IMG/VR virus record: IMGVR_UViG_3300036719_001729
Coordinates: 1 to 20,889 of that record
DNA length: 20,889 nt
Source: a virus
Reading direction: 5' to 3' (one strand)
In this document: one piece after another, positions 2,169-20,856 of the stretch
How positions within the stretch are numbered: position 1 is the stretch's first letter
Layout of the letters: each line of letters begins with the position of its first letter
Translations under genes and position numbers: made by a program
Notes under the pieces: generated by a model
The model's database searches: none
What the model saw: the letters and a program-made list of their open reading frames with translations, nothing else
What the model was told of the DNA's origin: nothing

Positions 2169-2190
2169 CTAATCGGCGAGTGCCAATTAG
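2169..2190 (-). other. Stem-loop over the stop codon of the 614-aa gene
   Basis: CTAATCGGC (2169-2177), loop GAGT, GCCAATTAG (2182-2190) forms a 9-bp stem with one G-T pair. On the minus strand it contains the TAA of the repetitive protein gene and is followed by ACCCCAAAT rather than a T-run, so it is not a standard intrinsic terminator. It may act in RNA stability or limit readthrough. Confidence 0.4.
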
Positions 2191-4031
2191 ACTGATCTTG
2201 AGGTATTACTGATAAGTATATCTCTATTGTCTTTATCAATGTATAATGTTCTACCATCAAAAATAAGTGCAGCGTCTCTCTCATCCTTAGTTATTATTAA
2301 AAGCCTATTTTCTATTGGTAATAATATATATCTATTATCTTCTGTAGTAGTTATTATTCTACCTTCTTGAATAATACTATTAATCCAAAGTATATGTTGA
2401 ATAATACTACTATGTAATACATCTGATACAATTAAGTGTACTTGTACATCTAAATTAGCATTAGTAGTATAGTTTGAAACAGATAAGTAATCTGCTAGTA
2501 ATATGTGTCCTTGGCTTATGCTAAATGTACTACTAAAAGTATTTACTAATAGATTTAATATACTTATAGTTATATCTTGTACTAAAGATACTTGTTCTGC
2601 ACTGGAACTTACATTTAGACTACTAATTAGTAAGTTATGGGCCTGGTACAGTAGTACTGAGCTTATTGAGTTACCTTGAGCTATACTCTGTAATATTAAA
2701 GTATTAGCTTGTATTAAATTTGCAGTAGTAATTAAATTACTATTAATTAAGTTATTAGTTAATAATGTTAATGCTTGACTTAATAGTACATTATCAATTG
2801 TTTTCGCACTAGCTAAATTATTAACTGTTAATATATAAGCTTGTGTTAATAACACTGGGCTTATTGAATTACCTTGTGCTATACTTTGCAATATTAAAGT
2901 ATTAGCTTGAGTTAAATTCGCAGTAGTAATTAAACTACTATTAACTAAGTTATTAGTTAATAATGTTAATGCTTGACTTAATAGTACGTTATCAATTGTT
3001 TTAGCATTGGCTAAATTATTAACTGTTAATATATAAGCTTGAGTTAATAATACTGAGCTTATTGAGTTACCTTGGGCTATACTTTGTAATATTAAAGTAT
3101 TAGCTTGTATTAAATTCGCAGTAGTAATTAAATTACTATTAACTAAGTTATTAGTTAATAATATTAATGCTTGACTTAATAGTACGTTATCAATTGTTTT
3201 AGCATTGGCTAAATTATTAACTGTTAGTATATAAGCTTGAGTTAATAATACTGAGCTTATTGAGTTACCTTGGGCTATACTTTGTAATATTAAAGTATTA
3301 GCTTGTATTAAACTGGTGGTTGAAATAGCTTGGTAATTTATTAAGTTAGATAAACTTAATGTAAAGTCTACTACTGAGGCTAAAGTATCGAACTGTACCC
3401 AAGATACCTGAATATCTATATACTGTGATAGTAATACTTGGCTTATTGAATTACCTTGAGCTAAACTTTGTAATATTAAAGTATTAGCTTGTATTAAATT
3501 CGTAGTAGTAATTAAACTACTATTAACTAAATTATTAGTTAATAAGGTTAATGCTTGACTTAGTAGTACATTATCAATTGTTTTAGCACTAGCTAAATTA
3601 TTAACTGTTAGTATATAAGCTTGTGTTAGTAATACTGGACTTATTGAGTTACCTTGAGCTAAACTTTGTAGTATTAAAGTATTAGCTTGAGTTAGTAAGG
3701 TAGTACTTATACTATTAGTACTTTGTAGGTAGTTAATTGTTAGTGTATAAGCCTGAGTTAGTACAACATTGCTAACGGCAGTACCGTTAGCAATTGCTTG
3801 TATTATTAAACTATTAGCCTGTGTTAGTACAGTAGTACTTAAACTATTTGTTGATGCTAAATGATTTAGCACAAGTAACAAACCGGAAATAGTTATACTA
3901 AGATGATCGGTATAATTAGTATTTGAAACGTTATTAATTGCTAGTATTAATTCCGCATAAGCATCGAATTGTACAAAAGAAACATCTACATTAATAATAC
4001 GACCTGATGCGAATAATACTAATAGTGACAT
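2187..4031 (-). CDS. Repetitive virion-like protein with 22-residue repeats, 614 aa
   Basis: The function is unknown; it is probably an extended structural protein such as a fibre. Short N-terminal (about 1-45, FVQFDAYAELILA) and central (about 208-230, VSWVQFDTLASVV) elements flank long arrays built from a 22-residue unit of the pattern VLLxQAxxLxxxNLxxxxxIxx. Three units make a 66-residue super-repeat that recurs nearly unchanged (NTLILQSIAQGNSIS / AYILTVNNLA / ALTLLTNNLVNS). The C-terminus (about 560-614) changes to short ENR/DNR strands (DNRYILLPIENRLLIITK, DERDAALIFDGRTLYIDKDNR), an element I associate with phage proteins. It lacks Cys and has very few charged residues in the arrays, which fits a repeat solenoid or fibre. 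Its AT-rich codon use matches the core genome rather than the GC-richer neighbours at 4083 and beyond. AAGGAAAGTCT precedes the ATG. Confidence 0.8.
   Translation of the reverse strand: MSLLVLFASGRIINVDVSFVQFDAYAELILAINNVSNTNYTDHLSITISGLLLVLNHLASTNSLSTTVLTQANSLIIQAIANGTAVSNVVLTQAYTLTINYLQSTNSISTTLLTQANTLILQSLAQGNSISPVLLTQAYILTVNNLASAKTIDNVLLSQALTLLTNNLVNSSLITTTNLIQANTLILQSLAQGNSISQVLLSQYIDIQVSWVQFDTLASVVDFTLSLSNLINYQAISTTSLIQANTLILQSIAQGNSISSVLLTQAYILTVNNLANAKTIDNVLLSQALILLTNNLVNSNLITTANLIQANTLILQSIAQGNSISSVLLTQAYILTVNNLANAKTIDNVLLSQALTLLTNNLVNSSLITTANLTQANTLILQSIAQGNSISPVLLTQAYILTVNNLASAKTIDNVLLSQALTLLTNNLINSNLITTANLIQANTLILQSIAQGNSISSVLLYQAHNLLISSLNVSSSAEQVSLVQDITISILNLLVNTFSSTFSISQGHILLADYLSVSNYTTNANLDVQVHLIVSDVLHSSIIQHILWINSIIQEGRIITTTEDNRYILLPIENRLLIITKDERDAALIFDGRTLYIDKDNRDILISNTSRSV
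2640..3700 (-). repeat. 198-bp tandem DNA repeats inside the 614-aa gene
   Basis: The block starting GTTATTAGTTAATAATGTTA recurs at 2751, 2949 and 3147, exactly 198 bp apart. A related copy starts at 3531 after an interruption of about 190 bp (around 3311-3500) that encodes the ISTTSLIQA/VQFDT segment. 198 bp is three 22-codon units. Copies differ by scattered substitutions only. Confidence 0.9.
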
Positions 4032-4082
4032 AGACTTTCCTTAAATACTACTTCTATATAGTGATTACTTTTAAGTATTAAC

Positions 4083-4364
4083 TTAACCTACTTCGCCAGC
4101 AGGTGCTAATCCATTGGTGACTAAATAAGTATAAATTGCATAGGACAGATCGTCTCTCCGGGTCAGCCCCGGCGTGGACATTGCATCCAGTATCACGGAG
4201 GTGTTTTCAGGTGATATATGAAGTTCCTGACAATCAATCCCCACCCACCCCCCATCTTCCTTGACGTACCCCTTACGCAGGGTGACCATTGCGCTGCCGT
4301 CTGCGTTCAGCACCAAGGGCAGCAGCTTGTACGCGATGCGTACCGTATCAGTAAAAATTGGCAT
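4083..4364 (-). CDS. Small conserved phage protein, 93 aa, unknown function
   Basis: A compact protein of the type often found beside phage tail-fibre genes. It has an N-terminal beta stretch (FTDTVRIAYKLLPLVLNADG), a central VTLRKGYVKEDGGWVGID and a C-terminal helix with HISPENTSVILDA, then RRDDLSYAIYTYLVTNG. No membrane segment, Cys pair or catalytic motif is visible. It marks the left edge of the GC-richer island: the next gene on the left is strongly AT-rich, while this one uses GC-ending codons freely. AAGGAG lies just before the ATG, and nine bases separate it from the gene upstream. A role in fibre assembly or as a chaperone is possible but unsupported. Confidence 0.65.
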   Translation of the reverse strand: MPIFTDTVRIAYKLLPLVLNADGSAMVTLRKGYVKEDGGWVGIDCQELHISPENTSVILDAMSTPGLTRRDDLSYAIYTYLVTNGLAPAGEVG

Positions 4365-4373
4365 AGCTACTCC

Positions 4374-5984
4374 TTAGACCAATGGGATCATCTCTTGCGA
4401 GACAGTTGAGAGGTGGGACTGAAGCAGGATGCAGTCGTAGTTGTCCGTGCCGTCGATAACGCAGTACGAAGCCATACGCTTGCCCTGTGCCGCTGTTCCA
4501 GCCTGTAGAAAGTCGGTCGGTGTGAACGGGGACAACACCCTGTTCTTCACGTCGAAGCGGTACATCTGGTTCACCGCAGAAGCCACATAGACGTTCATGT
4601 AGAACATGCGGCCCTCGTTATCACAAGGCGAGTACGCACCGCATGTCGCTGCGGTCATTGTCACTCCGCCGTCGATGGTCTGATTGTTGGTCCACGCGCC
4701 GGTTGTGCCTCCAGCGATGTCAAGCATGTCAACAAGCCCCGTTGTGCCTCGGAAGAAGTGGCAATGACTGTGGCGTGCATTACGTGCTGCGTCAGGCTGG
4801 ATACCCCACGACGGTGCCCACATACACCCTGCTGCCATCGCGCTACCTGCGGCTGCGAAGTAGGTAGTGCTCCATACATCAGAGGCGATGTTATTGGTGC
4901 CGTTATTGACGAAGGAATCGGTGTAGTTGTAGGTGTACACCGTGGTGGTAGCAGAGGAACGCGCCACAATCAGGTTCGGCAACTCTATGACATACTTCGC
5001 GGAAGACGACGGCGTGACAGTCCAGGGAGTGCCTAGCGTGTAAACTGGAGAAGGCCCAGCCGTATGCGATGCAATGATGCGGCGCTGACCGACTGCCGTC
5101 GGGGTAACAGCGTCGTACACGATGCGAATCTGGAAGTTGCGGTACTCGTTGGCTGCAACCACAGCGTCACCAAGGGTTGCCTGTCCAGTCAGCGTTCCAG
5201 AAGCAGCCGCAGTTGCAGCAAGCGCATGGCGAGTCTCCACCCCGGTGTCGTAAACGAACGTCCCCTGGACCATGCCCTCACCGGGCGTACAGTCATAAGG
5301 TGTGTACTGCTCGTCCAGAACCATGAATGCAGTATCCGTCGCCACAGTGCCCGGCAAGTTGGTGTTGGTCTTGTTGGTAAGGAAGTTCGTTGCTAGTTCG
5401 AAGCTACGGAAGATCGTAGCCCCGAGAGCGCCAGCGGACAACATGAACAGGCGACCCGCAACGATTTCGTACCGTGCACCAGCGGTAGGTGTGAACGAGA
5501 ACGCGGATAGAACTTGGATCGTTGGAGTGGTACCGGCAGTATTGCCAGTGATGTACCGCTCTTCAGTCTTTCCTGCTGTGGTGTCAATGATGCGCAGCTT
5601 GAACCCGTAGTCACCCGAACCTCCGCGATTTGCCAGCATGTTGATACCAACCGCTGCGGGCAGAATGGGGCCCAGCACAACAGAGGTTGTCGTCGCACCC
5701 GCTGCGATGGTCCCGACCAGACCGAAGCTGGGTACGAAAGCGGCTTCTGCACCGACAGCGTAAGTACCACCAAGGGCGGGGGGCACAACGAAGTTCCACG
5801 CCTTGGTGACGATGTTGAAGCGGTTGAGAGTCGTAGCGTTGACTAGGTTGTAAACGAACGGGTTTCTGCTAATGCCTGAGCGCATGTCGGACGCGAGAAT
5901 ACCCGCAGCAGCATGGGCGTTAGGCGACGGAGCAACCTGTCTCCACGCCAGCATATCTATAACTTTTTTGAATGTGTTTGCCAT
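4374..5984 (-). CDS. Putative virion surface/fibre protein with an internal duplication, 536 aa
   Basis: The exact role is unknown; position and composition suggest an exposed virion protein. The sequence is rich in Gly, Ala, Thr and Ser, with short strands throughout, and lacks long helices, signal peptide or membrane segment. Two segments look like duplicates: residues about 126-180 (YGFKLRIID, AGKTEER, NTAGTTPTIQV, ARYEIVAGRL) and about 281-338 (YRNFQIRIVYD, VGQRRIIASHTAG, SPVYTLG, AKYVIELPNL). A His/Cys cluster NARHSHCHFFRG near residue 395 could bind a metal. The C-terminus (YMNVYVASAVNQMYRFDVKNRVLSPF) is propeller-blade-like, which is a guess. The ATG directly abuts the TAA of the upstream gene (TAAATG). 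GC-rich codon use matches its neighbours up to 10.27 kb. Confidence 0.7.
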   Translation of the reverse strand: MANTFKKVIDMLAWRQVAPSPNAHAAAGILASDMRSGISRNPFVYNLVNATTLNRFNIVTKAWNFVVPPALGGTYAVGAEAAFVPSFGLVGTIAAGATTTSVVLGPILPAAVGINMLANRGGSGDYGFKLRIIDTTAGKTEERYITGNTAGTTPTIQVLSAFSFTPTAGARYEIVAGRLFMLSAGALGATIFRSFELATNFLTNKTNTNLPGTVATDTAFMVLDEQYTPYDCTPGEGMVQGTFVYDTGVETRHALAATAAASGTLTGQATLGDAVVAANEYRNFQIRIVYDAVTPTAVGQRRIIASHTAGPSPVYTLGTPWTVTPSSSAKYVIELPNLIVARSSATTTVYTYNYTDSFVNNGTNNIASDVWSTTYFAAAGSAMAAGCMWAPSWGIQPDAARNARHSHCHFFRGTTGLVDMLDIAGGTTGAWTNNQTIDGGVTMTAATCGAYSPCDNEGRMFYMNVYVASAVNQMYRFDVKNRVLSPFTPTDFLQAGTAAQGKRMASYCVIDGTDNYDCILLQSHLSTVSQEMIPLV

Positions 5985-6431
5985 TTAGGTAATCCTCGCT
6001 CTTACGTTTAAGTTCCATGCCGCGTTGACTTGGGCGCGAACAGGTACATCAGCGTTGAAACCGCCGATGTTGGTTTGGTTGGTCAGGGTGGCGCAGGTAG
6101 TGACAGTTCCCACCGTGGTGACAGTCCCCAGCGTTGGCAACGTCTCCACTATCACCGTTCCACGCTGCCGTTGTAGTGACTTATCGTACCCAAGAGGTGA
6201 TAGGAGCATCTGTAGGATGCGACCCAGTATTCCGTTTCCGTCGCTGTCTTGAACAGGCAGTGTTGGAGTGGGTGCGAGAATCATGACTGGTATGGGGTTG
6301 GTAGGCGTAACAAGACTCTCATAGGCAGCACCTCCGATATCTAGCGCCACAACCTGTGTCTTTATACCTGCACGGTCGATATCTCTAACTACATCCCCCG
6401 TTCCAGGTAGGGTGGTATTATCCATAGACAT
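5985..6431 (-). CDS. Conserved phage virion-associated protein, 148 aa
   Basis: It resembles a common phage family that begins with an NTTLPGTGDVV-type N-terminus followed by a KTQVVALDIGG strand. That family sits in tail-fibre or decoration gene clusters; I know no assigned biochemical function. Residues 45-65 are Pro/Thr-rich (PIPVMILAPTPTLPVQD). Residues 100-125 are a Thr/Val/Gly repeat (LPTLGTVTTVGTVTTCATLTNQ), typical of low-complexity beta stretches in these proteins. The end (FNADVPVRAQVNAAWNLNVRARI) is also conserved in style. The start overlaps the TAA of the 710-aa gene (TAATG), and its own TAA abuts the next ATG, so the three genes are co-translated. Met-3 is an alternative start. 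Confidence 0.65.
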   Translation of the reverse strand: MSMDNTTLPGTGDVVRDIDRAGIKTQVVALDIGGAAYESLVTPTNPIPVMILAPTPTLPVQDSDGNGILGRILQMLLSPLGYDKSLQRQRGTVIVETLPTLGTVTTVGTVTTCATLTNQTNIGGFNADVPVRAQVNAAWNLNVRARIT

Positions 6432-8563
6432 TATTGAGCCTCCAATACTATACTTAAGTTATTATAATCCGTTATTGAGTCACACTCAGTCGGGGTTAAG
6501 TTGATTTGATAATCCGCGAAGCTCGAACTCAGTGAACTGAACGTGCGGGTCGCGATGGTGGACGGTGTGCCGAAGGAATAGATTACTTGCTTCTTTGGCT
6601 TGAAGATTTGCCAGGGGTTTTGCGAGATTGGCGCAATCTCAGCGTCTGATAATGCTCGACTAAATACAAGCACAACCCCAATACCGTTTTGAGTTGTGGT
6701 TCCATATACCGGACGTCTCGCCAGATTTAGTCGTCTACCGGAATTGGCTACCGGGTTTGTTGTGTACGCAGAAGAGCTAATAAGTTTTCCGCCACTATAG
6801 AATGAGAACTGTGTGCCGTTATAGGTAGCGCATACTCTGTGGGTATATTGGTCGACACCAGTACCAATGTAACTTGAAACGCCAGTTACTCCTGATGTAG
6901 CATTTTGAACCACGCATACGTTGTTGGGATAGTAAAACTGATCTGTGCCTAAGCCAAACCCATACATATTGCCTTCGTCACCACTACACAATACTAAATC
7001 TATTGTGTAGTTGGCTATTGCAGTATCACCTGTAGGAATAGTTTCAGCAAAAACAGTCCAATTGCCGATGATACTGTCTGCTGGTGTTGGTCGCGCAAGT
7101 GTTTGTCCAGTAGTGTAGAAACCAATGCCCCCTTGTGGGGTGCCTACTGACCTCATCGGCCGTGTAGTTGGCGTTGATGTGCCTGCAAATGTCTGTTTTG
7201 TAATCAGTTCTATATGCTTTCCACCAGCATAAACTATTGCCGCTGCCAAAGACTTAGTTAGAGGATTGCCCCAATCAACCTCAACCGCTCCCTGCGGCTG
7301 CTTAGTCCATCTACGCGGTAGGAAAAGCCCGCCTGATATTCCACCGGGTTGTTTCAGCGTAGCAACCAGCGTACTGCCTGCTGACGACTTGGCCCGGATC
7401 GTGATTACCTGACCTGATGATGTGGCTGGGTCTGTGACCGCGCTTAGTGCCAATTCACATGGATCGTATGCGGTGCTGGTTGTGATGTAATCCGGCGCAT
7501 CACTGGCGGTTTCCTCGTCCAGCATAGCATAGAGGTCTGAGCCAATGGATGGCGTCCATGCTCCTGCAGAAAGGTCTGCTGTCGGGCGACCATAACGAAG
7601 GCTCAGTGTCGTCCAGGTGCCGCTTACCTCAACGACGTTGCTGTATGTCGTGCCGTCGTAAATGACCGCTGCGCTGTCGTACTCTGTGGCGGGATCAAGC
7701 CCGGACGCATCGAGGTATTGACCCGATCCTGTCCATACGGCATTCCCCGCCCACGATGCTGCTGCACCGGTTGAATCCTGCCCCGCTACGATCTGTGCGT
7801 TTGACGGTGTGCCGGTGCCTGCTGGGTACGTGACGGCGAATAATGTCTGGACAGTGATGCCGGACGAGAACGAGTAAATGACTTGCTTCTTTGGCTTGAA
7901 GATTTGCCAGGGGTTGCGTGTGATTTCTTTTGCGAAACTGTCAGGTAATAAGCTGTCCCAGATGGCGGCGAGGGAAATATCACACGCCCCACCCTGCCCA
8001 TAGGCTGGGCGATAGTCATTAAGTGAAAACCGCGCTGCACTTATGTCGGGTACCCCCGTTCCGGCAGTACTGCCGACGTATCTACCATCACGGTAGAAAT
8101 ATGCGGTATTTGCTGTGGCTGTGGTGGCAACAAGCAATGTTGTCCAAACATTTAGCGGTAGTGCTTCTCCAGAAGGAAGGTTATTGCCGTTATGGGTGCC
8201 CCAGTTAGTGCCTGCTTGAGTCCAAATACGGAAGGAATCCACCCCCGCCACAAAAATATAGGCTGTCGTTCTTGGACGCACCCGTACCAGTATGCTGGCC
8301 TTACCAGACACAGCAGCAATATTCCCGGTTGTGCTGTAGCTGCTCGAACCACTTGCGAATACTGCAGACTTATCACTACCTGCCACGCCGATTGTCGGAG
8401 TTCCGGTAACGCTTAACGGGTATCGCCCGTCAACATCCGATAAACGGCCCTCGTTAAACGCAAATACATCACGCGGGCGGACAAACCCGAGTGGTGCAGG
8501 ATCAACCTCAACCACTCCCTGCGGTTGCTTAGTCCATCTACTTGGTAAAATAATAGAAGCCAT
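6431..8563 (-). CDS. Double LamG-module fibre/receptor protein, 710 aa
   Basis: A probable tail-fibre or surface lectin-like protein. Module 1: LPSRWTKQPQG (6-16), a LamG/concanavalin-A-like beta sandwich (about 30-215, with FYRDGRYVGSTAGTG typical of the fold) and NPWQIFKPKKQVIYSF (217-232). An Ig/FN3-like region (about 235-320) and the first half of a jelly-roll-like domain (about 322-408, YGRPTADLSAGAWTPS to STLVATLKQ) follow. Module 2: LPRRWTKQPQG (about 415), a second LamG-like domain with FYSGGKLISSS, and the same NPWQIFKPKKQVIYSF (about 646-661). The last 49 residues (TIATRTFSSL, CDSITDYNNLSIVL) look like the second half of the interrupted jelly-roll. Sugar binding is inferred from the fold; no enzyme motif is seen. 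Its ATG lies two bases after the 270-aa gene's TAA. Confidence 0.75.
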   Translation of the reverse strand: MASIILPSRWTKQPQGVVEVDPAPLGFVRPRDVFAFNEGRLSDVDGRYPLSVTGTPTIGVAGSDKSAVFASGSSSYSTTGNIAAVSGKASILVRVRPRTTAYIFVAGVDSFRIWTQAGTNWGTHNGNNLPSGEALPLNVWTTLLVATTATANTAYFYRDGRYVGSTAGTGVPDISAARFSLNDYRPAYGQGGACDISLAAIWDSLLPDSFAKEITRNPWQIFKPKKQVIYSFSSGITVQTLFAVTYPAGTGTPSNAQIVAGQDSTGAAASWAGNAVWTGSGQYLDASGLDPATEYDSAAVIYDGTTYSNVVEVSGTWTTLSLRYGRPTADLSAGAWTPSIGSDLYAMLDEETASDAPDYITTSTAYDPCELALSAVTDPATSSGQVITIRAKSSAGSTLVATLKQPGGISGGLFLPRRWTKQPQGAVEVDWGNPLTKSLAAAIVYAGGKHIELITKQTFAGTSTPTTRPMRSVGTPQGGIGFYTTGQTLARPTPADSIIGNWTVFAETIPTGDTAIANYTIDLVLCSGDEGNMYGFGLGTDQFYYPNNVCVVQNATSGVTGVSSYIGTGVDQYTHRVCATYNGTQFSFYSGGKLISSSAYTTNPVANSGRRLNLARRPVYGTTTQNGIGVVLVFSRALSDAEIAPISQNPWQIFKPKKQVIYSFGTPSTIATRTFSSLSSSFADYQINLTPTECDSITDYNNLSIVLEAQ

Positions 8564-8697
8564 ATTTATGTACTCGCAGTTAATCGACCACCACTACTGG
8601 TGATATTGCTTACACCGAGCGAGGTGAGAACGGGGAATGATGACCCGAATGAATAAATTACTTGTTTCTTTGGCTTGAAGATTTGCCAGGGGTTTTG
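6576..8697 (-). repeat. Three copies of the module-end repeat (PWQIFKPKKQVIYSF)
   Basis: Near-identical DNA of about 46 bp containing CTTTGGCTTGAAGATTTGCC and CAGGGGTT occurs at 6576-6621, 7871-7917 and 8651-8697. Each encodes the end of a LamG-like module, in the 710-aa protein (two copies) and the 270-aa protein (one copy). Identity extends to silent positions, so the copies are recent duplicates or recombination partners. Confidence 0.9.
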
Positions 8698-9378
8698 GAG
8701 AAGCTCATTGCGTTCCGAATCCCCTAGTGCGCGATTGAACATAGCGAAACCAAGTAGCCCTGACGATCTTGAGGTTCCAGCTAGGTAGCCATTATGTGAT
8801 GCCGCCCAGTCTCCACCGGCTGTATTGAGGCTAACGACGGACTGCTGCCCGCTATCTAGGTAGATCGAAAGTGTGTCCTTCGCCCAATCAACAACCACAA
8901 TACACACGCGCTGAACCCGTGTTGGTAGGCCATTGAGATTACCTGTGGTCACGCTGCCGAACTTATCACCAGTATTAGCTTTGACGCCGTTGTTGCCAAG
9001 GAACAGCTGCAATCCTAGTGCAGCTGAAGTGTAGGTGTTAAGGTTGACCACTGAACTCTCATTGACAGGATGGAAAACCGCCAAAATCGAAACGGAGCCT
9101 TTAACCCCAGGAATCGCAACATTTTTGACTGTATTGTAGCCACCCGCCAGTGTAACGTTAGACGACCACTGATAGCGCATGGATAGGCCATGTTTACCGT
9201 ACTCTTTAATGAGATCAGTGGGATAGATAAACGGGGTGTACTTATCCACCGTTACATCGTAAAAACCAAGATCTTTGGCATAGCCTGCTCCCATCACACT
9301 GTCGAGATAGGCAGGCGCGATGCTGGTAATGCCCTGCGGTTGACGTTTCCATCTGGACGGTAAGATTATCGCAGCCAT
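7274..9378 (-). repeat. Three copies of the module-start repeat (LPSRW..QPQG)
   Basis: DNA coding for LP[SR]RW[TK][KR]QPQG occurs at about 7274-7325, 8501-8555 and 9331-9375. The first two share CTTAGTCCATCTAC and CAACCTCAACC; the third, at the start of the 270-aa protein, is more diverged. These are the opening boundaries of the LamG-like modules and could serve as recombination points for swapping receptor modules. Confidence 0.8.
8566..9378 (-). CDS. Single LamG-module fibre/receptor protein, 270 aa, truncated after the module
   Basis: One lectin-like module of the same build as those in the adjacent 710-aa protein. It opens with ILPSRWKRQPQG (5-16), continues with a beta-sandwich core (about 60-220, including SIYLDSGQQSVVSLNTAGG and a final FNRALGDSERNELLQ helix) and ends with NPWQIFKPKKQVIYSF (about 229-244). 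The remaining 26 residues (PVLTSLGVSNITSSGGRLTAS) look like the first two strands of an FN3/Ig-like domain that stops abruptly, so the gene is probably shortened relative to an ancestor with a full C-terminal domain. The TAA is two bases before the next gene's ATG. Role: probable virion surface binding protein, inferred from fold and neighbours. Confidence 0.7.
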   Translation of the reverse strand: MAAIILPSRWKRQPQGITSIAPAYLDSVMGAGYAKDLGFYDVTVDKYTPFIYPTDLIKEYGKHGLSMRYQWSSNVTLAGGYNTVKNVAIPGVKGSVSILAVFHPVNESSVVNLNTYTSAALGLQLFLGNNGVKANTGDKFGSVTTGNLNGLPTRVQRVCIVVVDWAKDTLSIYLDSGQQSVVSLNTAGGDWAASHNGYLAGTSRSSGLLGFAMFNRALGDSERNELLQNPWQIFKPKKQVIYSFGSSFPVLTSLGVSNITSSGGRLTAST

Positions 9379-9383
9379 GATTA

Positions 9384-9821
9384 TTATGCCGAGTTAGCAG
9401 AAATATTAGCTTGATAAACGTTGCCAGAGGTCAACGCAACGCCTAGGTCGTTCTTTGCCACCAACTTCATGTAACGCGCAGTTGGCAAGCCACTGAGCGA
9501 GAAGAACTTACGATGAAGAGCCGTGGCATTCATAGGTAATACACCAAGGAAGTGCAGATCAGCTTCTTCCGTCGACACATTGCTGCTTTCAGGGCCGGAG
9601 CCAAAATTGGTGTTGTCCAAACTAAATTTGGCAAACAATACCAGCTGCTTATTACCAGAGGGAGCGGAGCCAGGAGTTGCCTCTACCTCGAAAGTAACGT
9701 CGATAGGAATCGCTGCACCGAGGTCAATGGCTGAAGATGTTATATAAGTAGCGCTTTGCAGCGTGCCAAGATTAAGAATAGAACTACTACGAGTTCCTTG
9801 TGCCAGAGTGGTTGTGGTCAT
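9384..9821 (-). CDS. Conserved phage protein, beta-rich, 145 aa
   Basis: A small beta-sandwich-like protein of a kind I recognise from many phage fibre clusters. It has an N-terminal LGTLQSATYITSSAIDLG, then IDVTFEVEATPG, a long strand NKQLVLFAKFSLDNTNFGSG, and finally RKFFSLSGLPTARYMKLVAKNDLGVALTS and GNVYQANI. The pattern (an observable with error-like strand pairs, then LP.ARY.KLVA.ND.G.AL) suggests a compact jelly-roll. No catalytic residue, signal or membrane segment is visible. It is spaced five bases from the 270-aa gene and three from the gene upstream, so it is in the same operon. A role as fibre attachment or decoration protein is inferred only from position. Confidence 0.65.
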   Translation of the reverse strand: MTTTTLAQGTRSSSILNLGTLQSATYITSSAIDLGAAIPIDVTFEVEATPGSAPSGNKQLVLFAKFSLDNTNFGSGPESSNVSTEEADLHFLGVLPMNATALHRKFFSLSGLPTARYMKLVAKNDLGVALTSGNVYQANISANSA

Positions 9822-9824
9822 ATT

Positions 9825-10271
9825 TTAGCCTCTAGTTGCTTGAGCAATCTGCTCAATGGTTACATTACCAAGTCCAGCTTGTTCGGCACGCGAAATCAAC
9901 GTATCAGCCAGACTCAGGATCGTCAGTTTGTTAGTTTCGGTGAAATCCGGGATCAAGTCTTCTGCGACTAGACCATCCAGCACTTGCTCGAACTTGCCTA
10001 GAATCATCGGGTTGGCGAGGTCGAAGATCGGGAAGACTTCCAGCGCGCGCTTGGCAGCAACACATGCAGGCTGAATGCTGGACTCAATAGCGATGAGCAG
10101 GTCAACCAGCATTAAGTATTGGCGGATATCATGAGCAGCTACTTTGCCTTTAGCTGGAATATCTTTACGATTTAGAATTGCTGCTGCAATACCATCCGAG
10201 CCAGCAGCAATATGTGGTGCAAGTTCAGAAGCTAACGGGCCGGTGTTGATTTCTTCAATTAATGTAGTCAT
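9825..10271 (-). CDS. Conserved alpha-helical phage protein, 148 aa
   Basis: The protein is largely helical. The N-terminus INTGPLASELAPHIAAGSDGIAAAILNRKDIPAKG is typical of a widespread phage family encoded near tail or fibre genes and of unknown function. The middle (AAHDIRQYLMLVDLLIAIESS) and the C-terminal helices (LGKFEQVLDGLVAEDLIPDFTETNKLTILSLADTLISRAEQ) show regular hydrophobic spacing that suggests a bundle. No enzymatic motif was found. It lies at the right edge of the GC-richer island. The ATG follows AAGGAATTTT. Possible roles, such as tail assembly or a fibre chaperone, are guesses. Confidence 0.65.
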   Translation of the reverse strand: MTTLIEEINTGPLASELAPHIAAGSDGIAAAILNRKDIPAKGKVAAHDIRQYLMLVDLLIAIESSIQPACVAAKRALEVFPIFDLANPMILGKFEQVLDGLVAEDLIPDFTETNKLTILSLADTLISRAEQAGLGNVTIEQIAQATRG

Positions 10272-10289
10272 AAAATTCCTTATAATAAA

Positions 10290-10658
10290 TTAAGTAGGAT
10301 CACTAGTTTCACATTTGAAAGTAGGGATTGTTACAGTACCACCAGATGTAAGAGCCTGAGAAGTACAAGTAGTGACTAGCAGTACATTAGTACCATCACA
10401 AATAGCAACGTGTGTGGCAGTTCCACTTGCATCAATAGTTACTGCAGATTTTTGAGCTACAGTAATTTTACGACCATTAGTATCACCATTAGCTTTAGTA
10501 AAATCACCACCTGCCATAGTAACATCTGCTAGTGCAAAAGTTGTTACTGCCTCTGTACGAGTAGTTGGTTGTGCTGAGCATACTGTCATAATAGTACCAG
10601 TAGCAATTTTGTCTAGAAGTCCGTCTAGTACTGCGGTTGGATGTAAATATTTAGCCAT
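10290..10658 (-). CDS. Conserved small phage virion-like protein, 122 aa
   Basis: This matches the general look of a common phage protein: N-terminal helix (YLHPTAVLDGLLDKIATG), then TIMTVCSAQPTTRTEAVTTFALADVTM, a DGRK-like turn (GDTNGRKITVAQ) and a C-terminal beta region (GTATHVAICDGTNVLLVTTCTSQALTSGGTVTIPTFKCE). The pattern THxAxxDGTxxLxxT is a hallmark I remember from this group; no function is assigned to it. It is AT-rich like the core genome. The start overlaps the end of the 74-aa gene by eight bases, consistent with translational coupling. It could be a decoration or tail protein. Confidence 0.65.
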   Translation of the reverse strand: MAKYLHPTAVLDGLLDKIATGTIMTVCSAQPTTRTEAVTTFALADVTMAGGDFTKANGDTNGRKITVAQKSAVTIDASGTATHVAICDGTNVLLVTTCTSQALTSGGTVTIPTFKCETSDPT

Positions 10659-13855: not shown

Positions 13856-15023
13856 CTTTTGCGGGGGCTCCTCCACCCGGTTCACCTGCCGCACTACCTG
13901 CAATATTTGCGGGTACACGTAGGTCATCATGCCCCGGTTTGGGGACGTATCTTAAAGTTTCTCTAGCTTCATTAGGACTAATGATGCCACCATTTACAAG
14001 AGTACTATGGTACATAGCCTCATCTTTCAAATCTGGCTGTATAGCGGAAACTTTTGAAGCTTCTGGCTCTAGGTCATAACCAAAGAATCTTTCAAAACCA
14101 GCATTTACCATTCTAACAAGTGGTAAAATTGTCTCCATATAAAAGAGTCTGAGATTTGGGGTAATGTTTGCATTATTACCACTAGATATTAATACTTCTG
14201 GAACTCCTAAAGCTACTAGAATTTCTAAGTCTTTAGAAGTTATTGAATCTTTGAAATCTAACTCGCGAAAGTTTACATCCGTAATTTTATCTAAGTCTAG
14301 TCCACCATCTAAAATTAGGGGTCTTTTGCCACCCTTAGTTGGAGAGTACTGTGCTTGCCAAGACTCAATCATACGAGCTTTTATTTTATCTCCAAGTACA
14401 TTAGGAGATTTAATAACTAAACCAGGTACGGCTCCATTTTTAAAGAAGTTACCTTGGAAAGCTGTCATATCACTGCGTACTTTCAAAGTATCAGCAGTTG
14501 ATTTAAGTCTAGAAGTTCCCATGTATATGGAAGTACTAGAATTATCTGATATGTGCAATACTTCACTAGGTTTAAAGTCTATAATGCCATTATACTTGTA
14601 GCCCTTTACATAAATTAAAGGATCTGTTAAGATTTCCATCTGAGATGCTGGTAGATTGTAGAGATATACACCATCATAGTATATAAATGCATTACCAGTT
14701 AATACTAAATCAATATAGATAAGTCTACGAAATTTATTAGTATCAATATATGGATTAGGCTGAAAATTAAGTAGGTTTTCTACTTTAGCTTTTCTAGTAC
14801 CAATTGTGGGGGTTACTAAACCATTTATCTTTTCTTTTACATCTACATCAAAACTAGATGCTCCATTAACAATCATATCTACAGCACGTCTAACAGTAGT
14901 TAGGGCGTCATACGCTTGTTCAAAGGTGATAGTATTATCTGCATAAATACTATCACCTTCATTCCTAGCGATCTCGGCCTGTGCTGGGTTTAACTTCTCA
15001 ATAATCCAAGACTTAATACTCAT
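13842..15023 (-). CDS. Portal protein, HK97 family, 393 aa
   Basis: Forms the dodecameric DNA-entry ring at the capsid vertex. Family features are visible in order: a short N-terminal segment, AYDALTTVRRAVDMIVNGASS (about 37-57), NPYIDTNKFRRLIYIDLVLTGNAFIYYDG (about 90-118), an HISDNSS turn, GTSRLKSTADTLKVRSDM, FFKNGAVPGLVIKSP, the LDGGLDLDKIT segment, GVPEVLISSGNNAN and ETILPLVRMVNAGFERFF. The C-terminus is a Gly/Pro/Ala tail overlapping the protease start. The length is normal for this family. The ATG overlaps the TGA of an HNH gene, and its ribosome binding site (AGGTTT) lies inside the last HNH codons. Confidence 0.93.
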   Translation of the reverse strand: MSIKSWIIEKLNPAQAEIARNEGDSIYADNTITFEQAYDALTTVRRAVDMIVNGASSFDVDVKEKINGLVTPTIGTRKAKVENLLNFQPNPYIDTNKFRRLIYIDLVLTGNAFIYYDGVYLYNLPASQMEILTDPLIYVKGYKYNGIIDFKPSEVLHISDNSSTSIYMGTSRLKSTADTLKVRSDMTAFQGNFFKNGAVPGLVIKSPNVLGDKIKARMIESWQAQYSPTKGGKRPLILDGGLDLDKITDVNFRELDFKDSITSKDLEILVALGVPEVLISSGNNANITPNLRLFYMETILPLVRMVNAGFERFFGYDLEPEASKVSAIQPDLKDEAMYHSTLVNGGIISPNEARETLRYVPKPGHDDLRVPANIAGSAAGEPGGGAPAKDAAK

Positions 15024-15736
15024 ACTTCAAACCTATTTCCTTTACTTAAATTCTCACTAGCGGGTAGATGTTGAAGATTGAATTCACAATGAAGTCCACA
15101 TACTAATTTACCTTGTAATGGAACTATGTGGTCTACGTGATAACCAGTAGGGCAAGTTCGATAAATTTCTTTTATAGCTATCAGATTTGCCCAATTTGGG
15201 GTAGCTTGTAATTTTGTAGCTCTACGTTTTGCAGATTTATACGCGTCTTTATCAAGATTATTTAATCTACATCTTTTTGCTATTAATTTGGACTCCATTG
15301 GGTGCCTAGCTCTCCAAGAGTATGTTAACTTAAGGTGTCTTTCTTTATTTAAATTATAATATTCTTTTCTTGAGCTATTATAGCAATCTTTACATTGGCT
15401 AAAAATAATAGATTTGTCATTAGTATAGTAATAATCTATTGTTTTTGGTATATTACAATCTACACATACATAGTATCCAGTCAAGGATTCAAATAACCTT
15501 TTTAACCCAGTACCTTTATATTCATCAAAAAGCTCATTAAAGTACTTAGATCTTATTCTATATAATATATTACTAGGATCCTTGAATCCTGCTAAAGTAA
15601 AATATTCTGCACTCATATTTAATAATATGAGTTTTATAAACTCTGATGCTACTAACTTAGTCTTTCTATGTACTAATAAATTTTTATCCATATTTAATAT
15701 AAATAGAATACTTGATACTAGTTCATCTATATTCAT
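15020..15736 (-). CDS. HNH homing-type endonuclease, 238 aa (paralogue A)
   Basis: A likely free-standing homing endonuclease. Residues 88-118 hold two CxxC pairs (Cys-91/94 and Cys-115/118), a probable zinc ribbon. The basic helical stretch 120-180 ends with KLQATPNW. The HNH nuclease is at 199-234: YHVDHIVPLQG (His-200, Asp-202, His-203), GLHCEFNLQHLP (His-216, Asn-220) and NLSKGNRF. It shares the C-terminal half with the HNH upstream of the large terminase. AAAAAGGAGACGAA precedes the ATG. The final codons Asn-Arg-Phe-Glu-Val encode AATAGGTTTGAAGT, which is also the ribosome binding site of the portal gene, and the TGA overlaps the portal ATG. Confidence 0.85.
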   Translation of the reverse strand: MNIDELVSSILFILNMDKNLLVHRKTKLVASEFIKLILLNMSAEYFTLAGFKDPSNILYRIRSKYFNELFDEYKGTGLKRLFESLTGYYVCVDCNIPKTIDYYYTNDKSIIFSQCKDCYNSSRKEYYNLNKERHLKLTYSWRARHPMESKLIAKRCRLNNLDKDAYKSAKRRATKLQATPNWANLIAIKEIYRTCPTGYHVDHIVPLQGKLVCGLHCEFNLQHLPASENLSKGNRFEV

Positions 15737-16305: not shown

Positions 16306-17607
16306 TCAGAAATTTCCTACGTTTGATCTGTAACTATACAAGGCATAACGCAAAGCATCTGCCATATGGGAGTACTTGTCATGTACTGGTTTCTCAGTAA
16401 TTAATGTTTCCTTTGGATCCCAACGGAACTGATCTAGTGCAGCTAGAAGGTGCACACATTTGGGGTCAACAATTAATTTTCCTTGTTCAACAATCATCTG
16501 AACATATGCAATCCCGTCCAGCACGGACTTAGTTGCATTAATTGTAGAAATATCGTGGTTTACAGCCCAATCGTAGCGAGTTTGTTGTGCAGCAGAATCA
16601 ATGAAGATCATCTGCACGTCATACTTATCTTCTAGAGTTTTGCACTCTACCGCGTACTGATCTGTAGTCATATTTGCTTGTTGGAATTCGTCTAGCGCGT
16701 AGAAGGTTTGAGAATCATAGTCATACCCCAAAACGAGCATGGCGGTAGGATCTTTGAAACCGATATCAAGTCCCATAATTCTTTCAAGATGTTCCCATCT
16801 GTCCACCGGCATGATACACTTATGGTCAAACTTAAAGATCTGTCCTTCGAACACACTAAAGCTAGCTTCAAACTCTTGCGAAAATCTGCTAGCTGGCATA
16901 GTAGCGCGGGCTTCATTAATATCCTCTTCACTCGCCCGAGGATTCTCTCGGTAGTCGGCATGGATACTAACCCATTTAGCGAATGCAGGTATAGAGTTAA
17001 ACCCGTAATGCCAATAAGTAGAAAACCAATTATTTCTACCGCGCGGCGTACTTATAAAAATAGCTTTTGAATTCGGCTTATCTAGTGTTGGGCGCAATGC
17101 TATCTCGAAGGCTTCTTGTCCTTCGCTAGTAAGAGCAGCCTCATCAAAAATGATTAATGAATATGATCGGCCAACTACTGAATCTATCTGTGATACTGAC
17201 CCCATCCTAATTGTAGACCCATTACTTAATTCTAGTATTCTATCTTTGGCATTATCTCTAGTTAATTCTATTTTATGATGATTTAATAGCTTACGTTGCT
17301 CCTCGAATGAGATAGAAGATAGAGCATAGTTTGGTGAAACTATTAATACATGAGTATCAGGTACTAGAGTAAGTAGGTGACCTACTATGTTTGCTATTAG
17401 CGTTTTACCTACGCGGCGACTAACGGCAGCTACTACGAAACGATACTTAGGGTTATTTAGTGCGTTAACTATTGCAATTTGGGGTCCATTAAGTTCTATT
17501 CCAAGTAAGTTAAGGTACTTATTAACTGGAAGCTTTATAAACCTATTTTCTATGGGGAATTCAGAGAATTCTGTACTACTTACATCACTACGACTAATTT
17601 TTAACAT
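16306..17607 (-). CDS. terL: Terminase large subunit, 433 aa
   Basis: The DNA-packaging motor and nuclease. ATPase motifs: Walker A SRRVGKT (63-69) and Walker B LIIFDEAA (151-158, Asp-155/Glu-156), with a coupling-type STPRGRNNW (187-194). RNase H-like nuclease: MGLDIGFKDPTA (Asp-281), MIFIDSAAQQ (Asp-337) and HDKYSHMADALRY (Asp-410, Asp-417). Length and motif order are normal. The ATG at 17607 lies inside the last codons of the HNH gene, with AGGTTTAAAGT in front. The gene works with the small subunit at 18428-18892. The stop is TGA. Confidence 0.95.
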   Translation of the reverse strand: MLKISRSDVSSTEFSEFPIENRFIKLPVNKYLNLLGIELNGPQIAIVNALNNPKYRFVVAAVSRRVGKTLIANIVGHLLTLVPDTHVLIVSPNYALSSISFEEQRKLLNHHKIELTRDNAKDRILELSNGSTIRMGSVSQIDSVVGRSYSLIIFDEAALTSEGQEAFEIALRPTLDKPNSKAIFISTPRGRNNWFSTYWHYGFNSIPAFAKWVSIHADYRENPRASEEDINEARATMPASRFSQEFEASFSVFEGQIFKFDHKCIMPVDRWEHLERIMGLDIGFKDPTAMLVLGYDYDSQTFYALDEFQQANMTTDQYAVECKTLEDKYDVQMIFIDSAAQQTRYDWAVNHDISTINATKSVLDGIAYVQMIVEQGKLIVDPKCVHLLAALDQFRWDPKETLITEKPVHDKYSHMADALRYALYSYRSNVGNF

Positions 17608-18284
17608 ACTTTAAACCTATTATTCTTACTAAGATTATCCTTAGCCGGTAGATGTTGGAGATTGAATTCGCAGTGGAGCCCACAAACTAGTTCACCTTGT
17701 AATGGTACTATATGATCTACGTGATAACCTTCAGGACATGTTTTATATATCTGTTTTATCTTTTCTTGGTCTATCCAGCTTGGAGTAGCCTGTAATTTAG
17801 AAGCTCTGTAGTGTGCATTTCTAGCATAAAAATCTGACTTGTTTAGTTGGAAGTATTCTTTTGACCATTCTTGTATACGCTCCTTGCTACTTTCCTTATA
17901 TTCTTTTCTACAGCTTTTACATTGATATTCTAATCCTCCACTTCTAGACTTGGAAATACTAAAGTTACTATGATCTAGCACTGAATTACACGTAAAACAT
18001 TTTCTCTTCTCTACTATTATTAAAAAATATGTCAGCCATGTTTTACCAGACTTATCTTTCATTACTTCTGGGTAACGTTCCCTCATAGATCTACCAAAAG
18101 CACTATCATTACAATAGCCACAGTATTTGGCTAAGTCTATAGAAGTCTGTACTTCCATGGACTTAGTAATAAACTGTTTCCAGGTTATATTCTCTGTACG
18201 CTTACGAAACTTAGGTAAAAACACTTCGCCCACACCAAATCGTTTAACTAACACATCATAAATTTCATTAACTAAATTTTCCAC
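17601..18284 (-). CDS. HNH homing-type endonuclease, 227 aa (paralogue B)
   Basis: Paralogue of the HNH gene before portal. A divergent N-terminal region (1-90) is followed by two CxxC pairs (Cys-96/99 and Cys-122/125), a basic helical stretch ending KLQATPSW, and the HNH nuclease YHVDHIVPLQG (His-188, Asp-190, His-191), GLHCEFNLQHLP (His-204, Asn-208), NLSKNNRF. The C-terminal 65 residues are almost the same as in paralogue A, also in DNA. The start is GTG at 18284 with AAAGGAGACA in front. The last codons encode AATAGGTTTAAAGTATG, which contains the ribosome binding site and ATG of the large terminase gene. It separates the two terminase genes. Confidence 0.85.
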   Translation of the reverse strand: MENLVNEIYDVLVKRFGVGEVFLPKFRKRTENITWKQFITKSMEVQTSIDLAKYCGYCNDSAFGRSMRERYPEVMKDKSGKTWLTYFLIIVEKRKCFTCNSVLDHSNFSISKSRSGGLEYQCKSCRKEYKESSKERIQEWSKEYFQLNKSDFYARNAHYRASKLQATPSWIDQEKIKQIYKTCPEGYHVDHIVPLQGELVCGLHCEFNLQHLPAKDNLSKNNRFKVC

Positions 18285-19065: not shown

Positions 19066-19189
19066 TTTAGCGCTTAATTGGTTAGTCCTTGGTGATTTAT
19101 AAAGTTTTACGCGGGGACTGGCCTGTGAGCATTAGAAAAGTCGAAGTCTAATAACCGCCCCCGTACCTGGCATGCTTCTTGCATGGTCG

Positions 19190-19279
19190 AAAATATTTTT
19201 TAACCAAACGAAAAATAAACTTGCATTCTTTTGATTTTTCTATATAATAACTACATCGACAACTTACTAAGGAAATGAA
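19190..19279 (+). promoter_or_regulatory. Early promoter cassette 1
   Basis: TTGCAT (19221-19226), 16-nt spacer, TATAAT (19243-19248), then leader ACATCGACAAC and AAGGAAATGAA before the ATG at 19280. An A/T-rich upstream tract (AAATATTTTTTAACC) may act as an UP element. It matches cassettes 2 and 3 over about 90 bases. Confidence 0.85.
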
Positions 19280-19486
19280 ATGCAAATCGTTCAGACCATC
19301 TACTGTTCTAACCACGCTGAAGCTATGACGCTAAGGCTTTATGTTCAGGGCAAGATCAGCAAGCTGCAGGCTTGTATCATCCTGCGTCAATTGACTGGCG
19401 ATGATCTCAACTCCACTGTCAAGCTTCTGCACTTGGCGCAAGATAATGGCTTCTTCGATCACAATGGTAGCATGATCAAAGAGTAA
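19280..19486 (+). CDS. Small early protein, 68 aa, unknown function
   Basis: First gene of the rightward block, directly under promoter cassette 1 with AAGGA eight bases before the ATG. The protein (MQIVQTIYCSNHAEAMTLRL at the start, KISKLQACIILRQLTGDDLN in the middle) is soluble and probably mostly helical. No known motif. Codon use is more GC-balanced than in the other small plus-strand genes, which may point to a separate origin. It is followed at once by a strong terminator, so it is a single-gene unit. Host takeover or inhibition is the usual role of such genes; here it is inference. Confidence 0.75.
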   Translation: MQIVQTIYCSNHAEAMTLRLYVQGKISKLQACIILRQLTGDDLNSTVKLLHLAQDNGFFDHNGSMIKE

Positions 19487-19583: not shown

Positions 19584-19694
19584 GCTGTCAAGCAATTTAT
19601 TCGTAAATATTTTTGACCCAATAAAAAATAAGCTTGCATTGTTTTGCTTCTTCTGTATAATGAATTCATCGAACAACGCAACGCAGGAAATGAA
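19584..19694 (+). promoter_or_regulatory. Early promoter cassette 2
   Basis: TTGCAT (19634-19639), 16-nt spacer, TATAAT (19656-19661), leader CATCGAACAACGCAACGCAGG and AAATGAA before the ATG at 19695. It shares GCTGTCAAGCAATTTATTCG and AAATATTTTTGACC with cassette 3. Confidence 0.9.
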
Positions 19695-20560: not shown

Positions 20561-20670
20561 GCTGTCAAGCAATTTATTCGTAAATATTTTTGACCAAGGC
20601 GAAAAATACGCTTGCATTGTTTTGCTGTTACTGTAGAATGAACACATCGAACAACTACTAAGGAAATGAA
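20561..20670 (+). promoter_or_regulatory. Early promoter cassette 3
   Basis: TTGCAT (20612-20617), 16-nt spacer, TAGAAT (20634-20639), leader CATCGAACAAC and CTACTAAGGAAATGAA before the ATG at 20671. Nearly the same as cassette 2 from GCTGTCAAGC onward; the -10 has one change from TATAAT. Confidence 0.88.
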
Positions 20671-20856
20671 ATGAAACGCTCTGATGGATATTACTGGAAT
20701 CTGGAAAATGCTCAAGGTAAAGACTTTGTATGGTCAAGCAGTAATTTTGAGCAAGGCATTTCTACACGTCAACAGTTGGCAAAGTTTAATAAAACTCGGC
20801 CTTGCAATGTTAAGCTTATTGATGTTATAATTGCTGTTCTGAAATCAATCTTTTAA
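20671..20856 (+). CDS. Small early protein, 61 aa
   Basis: Starts MKRSDGYYWNLENAQGKDF and ends KTRPCNVKLIDVIIAVLKSIF. The N-terminal half has several aromatic residues (Tyr, Trp, Phe); the C-terminal half is basic then hydrophobic (VKLIDVIIAVLKSIF), perhaps an amphipathic helix that touches the membrane. First gene under promoter cassette 3, with AAGGAAATGAA before the ATG. The TAA is followed by AAGGAAAATAAA and another ATG. No family recognised. Confidence 0.72.
   Translation: MKRSDGYYWNLENAQGKDFVWSSSNFEQGISTRQQLAKFNKTRPCNVKLIDVIIAVLKSIF

Follow-up and report, generated by a model that had tools for sequence, protein, structure and literature searches.

A 710-amino acid protein encoded in the window (the whole stretch of DNA analyzed, a virus record of 20,889 bases) is best read as a phage virion surface (adhesin-type) protein in which LamG cassettes are grafted into loops of a scaffold made of FN3-like and CBM-like domains and are exchanged there; we put the probability of this reading at roughly 0.85. 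It carries a LamG module that lies inside another domain of the same protein, a beta-sandwich that we call JR. This arrangement had been proposed in a preliminary description of the DNA, and it is borne out by intact homologs, by a tree in which the interrupted form is nested and by a predicted strand order that is kept across the interruption.

The terminase encoded in the window is 50% identical to those of T5-like phages, and genes for the portal (recognized by its position and by reading of the sequence) and for a protease-capsid protein adjoin it; the locus of the 710-amino acid protein and its LamG modules lies downstream of the capsid gene. The gene (6431..8563, on the minus strand, as are all features of this and the neighboring gene given below) encodes in order LamG module 1, the FN3-like segment FN3b, the first half of JR, LamG module 2 and the second half of JR. 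The neighboring 270-codon gene (8566..9378) encodes a free-standing LamG-type module followed by a C-terminal FN3-like segment, FN3a. The gene order of a 143–154-amino acid gene, a 145–150-amino acid gene, a LamG gene and a JR gene is kept in the window and in the related loci L153 and L157. The region from about 4000 to 10300, which carries the adhesin-type genes, has a higher GC content (0.41–0.57) than its T5-like surroundings (about 0.28–0.40). Elsewhere in the window, a 614-amino acid protein (2187–4031) is made up of long internal repeats, 300 nt in length at a spacing of 198 nt and with subunits of 66 nt; two HNH-like genes (15020–15736 and 17601–18284) have 3′ ends that are 79% alike in nucleotide sequence over 155 nt (15021–15175 and 17605–17759); and AT-rich intergenic blocks are repeated at 19187–19285, 19584–19677 and 20561–20676, some of them just before small plus-strand ORFs.

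Relatives were gathered by scanning viral contigs with the JR first half and with the whole 710-amino acid protein, and a wider scan gave 52 viral and two bacterial loci. A JR profile of 125 positions, built from the uninterrupted relatives, matches the 710-amino acid protein twice, at residues 324–406 (E = 1e-29) and 668–709 (E = 2e-9). The first half, residues 322–405 (7349..7600), ends in STLVATLKQ and covers profile positions 2–82, and the second half, residues 669–710 (6434..6559; TIATRTFSSL...IVLEAQ), covers positions 84–125. The whole 125-position domain is found uninterrupted in about 45 ORFs by profile search, so the uninterrupted relatives that the preliminary description had suggested looking for do exist. 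Among them are L053 and L054, whose JR is 71% identical to that of the window; their 215-amino acid protein has the same FN3-like part and then runs continuously through RFARPSSD...LVATLKQGATTIATRTFTSLG...LEAQ, so that the junction reads LVATLKQ-GATTIATRTF in these phages and LVATLKQ-(LamG)-TIATRTF in the window. At the level of sequence, it is thus confirmed that residues 322–405 and 669–710 are two parts of a single beta-sandwich domain of about 125 residues. Both halves that had been described are present, but the first ends at the LKQ of residue 405 (nucleotide 7349) rather than at residue 408, and the segment that matches JR at the C-terminus is 42 residues long (669–710) rather than 49. 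JR has no clear family in Pfam or PHROGs; one relative matches CBM_4_9 weakly (E = 0.0075, under the cut-off), and a comparison of the JR profile with PDB sequences gave weak matches only (E ≥ 0.004), two of them to CBMs.

An AlphaFold2 model of residues 319–710 agrees with this assignment. In the alignment used for it the intact relatives were entered as separate halves, so the two halves were linked only through interrupted relatives. The pLDDT is about 90 over most of the JR first half and 92–96 in the second half, and the LamG part has weak stretches with values below 50. The elements of the first half (E, strand; H, helix) are E9-14, H26-30, E50-55, E68-73 and E81-87 and those of the second half are E350-357, E365-370, H373-378 and E386-391. 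They pair one by one with those of a model of the intact L054 protein, E127-132, H144-148, E165-171, E184-190 and E197-203 followed by E206-213, E221-226, H229-234 and E241-247, in which the intact JR has a pLDDT of about 91–98. The insert position corresponds to the two-residue turn 204–205 (intact numbering) between two adjacent strands. Both predicted flanks thus keep the intact strand order at high confidence, so that the structure-prediction check proposed with the original observation comes out in favor as far as strand order goes, and from this order and confidence the two halves would probably pack as one domain. The intact JR model matches beta-sandwich CBMs with Z scores of 7–8 and an rmsd of about 3 over 100–110 residues, many families being tied; this is suggestive of a CBM-like fold, although a Z of such size may reflect a common arrangement only. 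The module 2 part of the window model matches ConA-like lectin folds with Z scores of 10–12 over 160–190 residues, and the matches of the LamG part include the lectin module of PilC (Z 11.9) and a sialidase lectin-like domain. The ConA-like fold is very common, and a match to it gives no information about the ligand. When the interrupted model was compared by VIA-align and Foldseek, the lists were taken up with matches to the LamG part, and they are uninformative on the pairing of the JR halves.

LamG module 2 occupies residues 415–664 (6572..7321) and is flanked by the linkers PGGISGGLF and GTPS. It begins with LPRRWTKQPQG (residues 415–425) and ends with NPWQIFKPKKQVIYSF (649–664), and the 710-amino acid protein matches Pfam Laminin_G_3 (E = 2.3e-13; 51 bits against a cut-off of 27.6) with its best stretch at residues 502–644 of this module. 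The complete module that had been described between the two halves is therefore there, with the quoted motifs in place, and it is of LamG type, but to call it a full copy of module 1 was loose, as the two are only about 27% identical inside. Module 1 occupies residues 1–232 (7868..8563). The module of the 270-amino acid protein has no Pfam match of its own and is assigned to LamG from its end motifs and its 30% identity to module 1. The three modules of the window share 27–30% protein identity, with interiors that have no nucleotide similarity, and the close-relative scan detected no relative of the module 2 interior in viral contigs. The GC content is 0.60 in FN3b, 0.56 in the JR first half, 0.465 in module 2, 0.51 in module 1 and 0.45 in the JR second half (in L061 it is 0.48 in two LamG modules and 0.56 in the middle of JR); given the low value of the JR second half, composition alone cannot tell insert from host domain.

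Module 1 lies at a break in the FN3-like domain, which is divided between the two genes. FN3a (8569..8637), the C-terminus of the 270-amino acid protein, supplies the first strands (FPVLTSLGVSNITSSGGRLTAST, then a stop codon), and FN3b (residues 233–321; 7601..7867), which is 83% identical to L054, supplies the remaining strands (QTLFAVTYPAGTG...) after module 1 in the next gene. As the FN3-like parts flank it, module 1 too appears to sit at a break between strands. The gene break is at the same place in L123–L132 and, more distantly, in L138, L139, L142 and L147. L053, L054, L127 and L130 and the distant L138, L139, L142 and L147 have the break with no LamG between the parts, the domain is contiguous in L143, L146 and L150, and in L051 a LamG gene directly precedes the second FN3-like part. 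A read-through model of the L054 FN3-like domain is of low confidence (pLDDT about 30–60). The split domain (8566–8637 plus 7601–7867 in the window) has TGACATG or in-frame TAA junctions across distant phages, and it could reflect docking of a split domain, coupled re-initiation or, in some phages, frameshifting; a +1 frameshift at TGACATG is not favored, as TGACATG is not the junction in L054, L142 or the window.

The ends of the modules are far more alike than their interiors. The start repeats of module 2 (7274..7320) and module 1 (8501..8547) are 91.5% identical over 47 nt, and their end repeats (6572..6619, encoding NPWQIFKPKKQVIYSF, and 7868..7915) are 91.7% identical over 48 nt. The end of module 2 is also 93% identical over 58 nt to that of the 270-codon gene, whose end repeat lies at 8647..8694; at the start of the 270-codon gene the match is poorer (72% over 53 nt). 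The near identity of end repeats reported earlier therefore applies to both ends of modules 1 and 2 and to the end, but not the start, of the module in the 270-codon gene. All three window copies of NPWQIFKPK use synonymously identical codons, for which a chance of about 1e-6 is estimated from module-interior codon usage for independent codons. The end motifs are conserved in protein as well, so constraint could account for part of the nucleotide similarity.

Comparison of closely related alleles points to exchange of the modules. L020 and L025 have mostly 97–100% nucleotide identity in the scaffold (80–82% over the 40 residues before the insert), fall to about 30–48% in the interior of the LamG module at the JR insertion site called C and return to 90–100% at NPWQIF; the two modules are unrelated, and the breakpoints are at the QPQG and NPWQIF ends. 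L036 and L040 similarly have 26–52% identity in the interior of the module at site B (the site occupied in the window) between scaffold flanks of about 73–92%, and at site A their LamG modules have ends of about 90% identity and a partly diverged middle. On the tree path between these two phages, JR has about 0.11 changes per site versus more than 4 for the site-B LamG. L157 and L158 have nearly the same JR and different N-terminal LamG modules. These pairs of near-identical proteins that differ in one block show inserts being replaced while the scaffold stays, and they support homologous recombination, at or close to the short conserved ends, as the means by which modules are replaced. A tree test did not reject a common ancestor for the site-B modules of the window, L036 and L040 (p-AU 0.228). 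An alternative is that the likeness of the ends reflects recent duplication followed by fast divergence of the interiors under diversifying selection, or constraint on the DNA of the ends, with no recombinational exchange; the end motifs are indeed conserved in the proteins of many phages and the codon choice there is biased, but the nucleotide identity of the L020 and L025 interiors is random-like and gives way sharply to DNA that is nearly the same in both, and rapid point change would not leave adjacent 100% identity or indels so large, so this alternative seems unlikely. The earlier idea that module 2 was inserted by recombination at the repeats holds up as an explanation of module exchange among natural alleles but not of the first insertion; the intact hairpin is without such module ends, so first entry into a loop needs a different route.

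Inserts are found in at least four JR loops (sites A–D) across the phages. Site A follows the first JR strand and precedes the LYxxLDE helix; it holds LamG in L036, in L040, L058 and L061, and in L079; the inserts of L079 and of L036/L040 could have one origin. In L106 (3272–4333) site A holds a non-LamG beta domain, so this loop may take more than one domain type. Site B is occupied in the window, L036, L040 and the distant pair L017/L011, which is far from the window clade in the tree; two or more separate entries into site B are therefore probable. Site C is occupied in L006, L020, L025 and L033, and site D in L006 and L021. Within one lineage, L020 and L025 have an insert at site C only, L021 at site D only and L006 at both; in these four the first JR strand was not seen and LamG starts the protein. 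From tree position and linkers we infer about seven or eight loop entries. Two other arrangements were seen among these loci. In L033 (2551–3441 and 3426–4496, minus strand) JR is split over two genes that overlap at TGATG, the second of which begins with a LamG that supplies its own start codon, and in L060 (1871–4951) a different phage beta domain (SWRYIGQ...GDLFVAM) seems to be broken up by a stretch of some 560 residues with propeller-like repeats (VTYSSTEDLFVAVGxxGTIITSPDGTTW).

The JR tree, rooted at its midpoint only, groups the window with L036 and L040 (support 100/96) among the intact L053/L054 and L060, and shows the uninterrupted JR as ancestral and the interrupted form as derived in the window clade. 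The interrupted form is thus nested inside intact lineages, and the doubt raised at the outset, that the interrupted order might be the ancestral one, is answered under this rooting in favor of an intact ancestor. Were the interrupted form ancestral, the intact relatives would be losses of the insert. Loss can occur, and in the L006, L020, L021 and L025 lineage sites C and D are each filled in some members and empty in others, which suggests that gains and losses may both take place; but intact forms occur in nearly every part of the tree, the sister group of the window clade included, and different clades carry inserts in different loops, which makes an interrupted ancestor rather improbable. 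It is more improbable still that the exchange depends on a recombinase or invertase dedicated to it or on a diversity-generating retroelement; one cassette type is exchanged repeatedly at fixed sites, as such an element might do, but the window repeats are ordinary coding sequence, and inspection of the ORFs and repeats of the 20.9-kb window, itself a fragment, brought up neither a reverse transcriptase nor a template repeat nor an invertase. Equally remote is an ordinary tandem chain in which the flanks are separate small domains that resemble a split domain by chance. Phage proteins do often have tandem domain arrays, and LamG followed by an intact JR does occur (L014, L007), but the halves match consecutive, non-overlapping parts of the profile, intact proteins hold both contiguously and the model preserves the strand order, so that the sequences by themselves already refute it.

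Under the loop-grafting explanation, the 710-amino acid protein would most likely belong to the virion surface of a tailed phage, with a scaffold of an FN3-like domain and then a CBM-like beta-sandwich. LamG/ConA-like modules would be grafted into turns that join neighboring scaffold strands and would be replaced by homologous recombination within their short conserved ends. In the window, one such module occupies site B, a hairpin turn of the CBM-like sandwich, and a second lies where the FN3-like domain is broken. Each loop was presumably first entered through a rare illegitimate or microhomology event. From their fold and context the modules may bind glycans or other surface ligands, in which case swapping them would diversify binding; the lectin-fold modules, the CBM- and FN3-like scaffold, the virion-gene cluster and the synteny in distant phages together suggest an adhesin with exchanged binding modules. 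Searches by tblastn with the 710-amino acid, the intact 215-amino acid and the 868-amino acid L006 proteins found no homolog among the isolated phages in the collection, and L020 had no match among plasmids. A broader proposal, which we advance tentatively and at somewhat less than even odds, is that at least four permissive loops of the CBM-like domain serve for display, holding whole lectin-fold cassettes that are swapped as alleles via their short shared ends. If so, a phage could vary several binding modules on one fold that need not be rebuilt, much as an immunoglobulin keeps its frame and varies its loops, except that each loop would here be an entire domain.

Host-interaction proteins of phages are known mosaics, usually built like beads on a string. 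Ongoing domain shuffling in phage receptor-binding and tail proteins, with recent exchange between related proteins, is described in the main text of a 2023 Nature Communications paper (PMC10684548), where the words laminin, concanavalin and lectin have no mention. The relatives of the window also show recent domain exchange, but here the exchanged domain is nested in loops of another domain, with several loops per scaffold. The PilC protein of Streptococcus sanguinis, in which a ConA-like module on a type IV pilin scaffold gives glycan binding (PMC9934059), is a parallel for the grafting of such a module, and it is among the top fold matches of the window LamG part (Z 11.9); its module differs in being a C-terminal addition to a pilin rather than lying within a CBM-like hairpin, and no exchange is noted in that paper. 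The phage modules match the Laminin_G_3/ConA-like superfamily (PF13385) by profile and by fold, but they have their own start and end motifs (QPQG and NPWQIFKP) and can sit within other domains. The intact JR may share its fold with the beta-sandwich CBMs (CBM4, 6, 16, 29, 32 and 36; Z 7–8), but it is without a significant sequence family and the likeness is one of predicted fold. Capsid decoration proteins with Ig-like domains, such as pb10 of T5 (PMC5292684), are a possible parallel in setting, given the T5-like terminase of the window and the position of the locus downstream of the capsid gene. Among open-licence papers we found nothing on nested domain insertion of this kind in phages. With the phages gathered here one can ask, as in a natural experiment, where a small beta-sandwich tolerates a whole domain in its loops. 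They also provide material for comparing ways in which binding may be diversified by phages that use no retroelement, and they warn that profile tools used in annotation miss half-domains around inserts and domains split over two genes. New here, relative to the mosaics described before, is an exchange unit that is nested within another domain and occupies several of its loops, with natural alleles that reveal the edges of the exchange.
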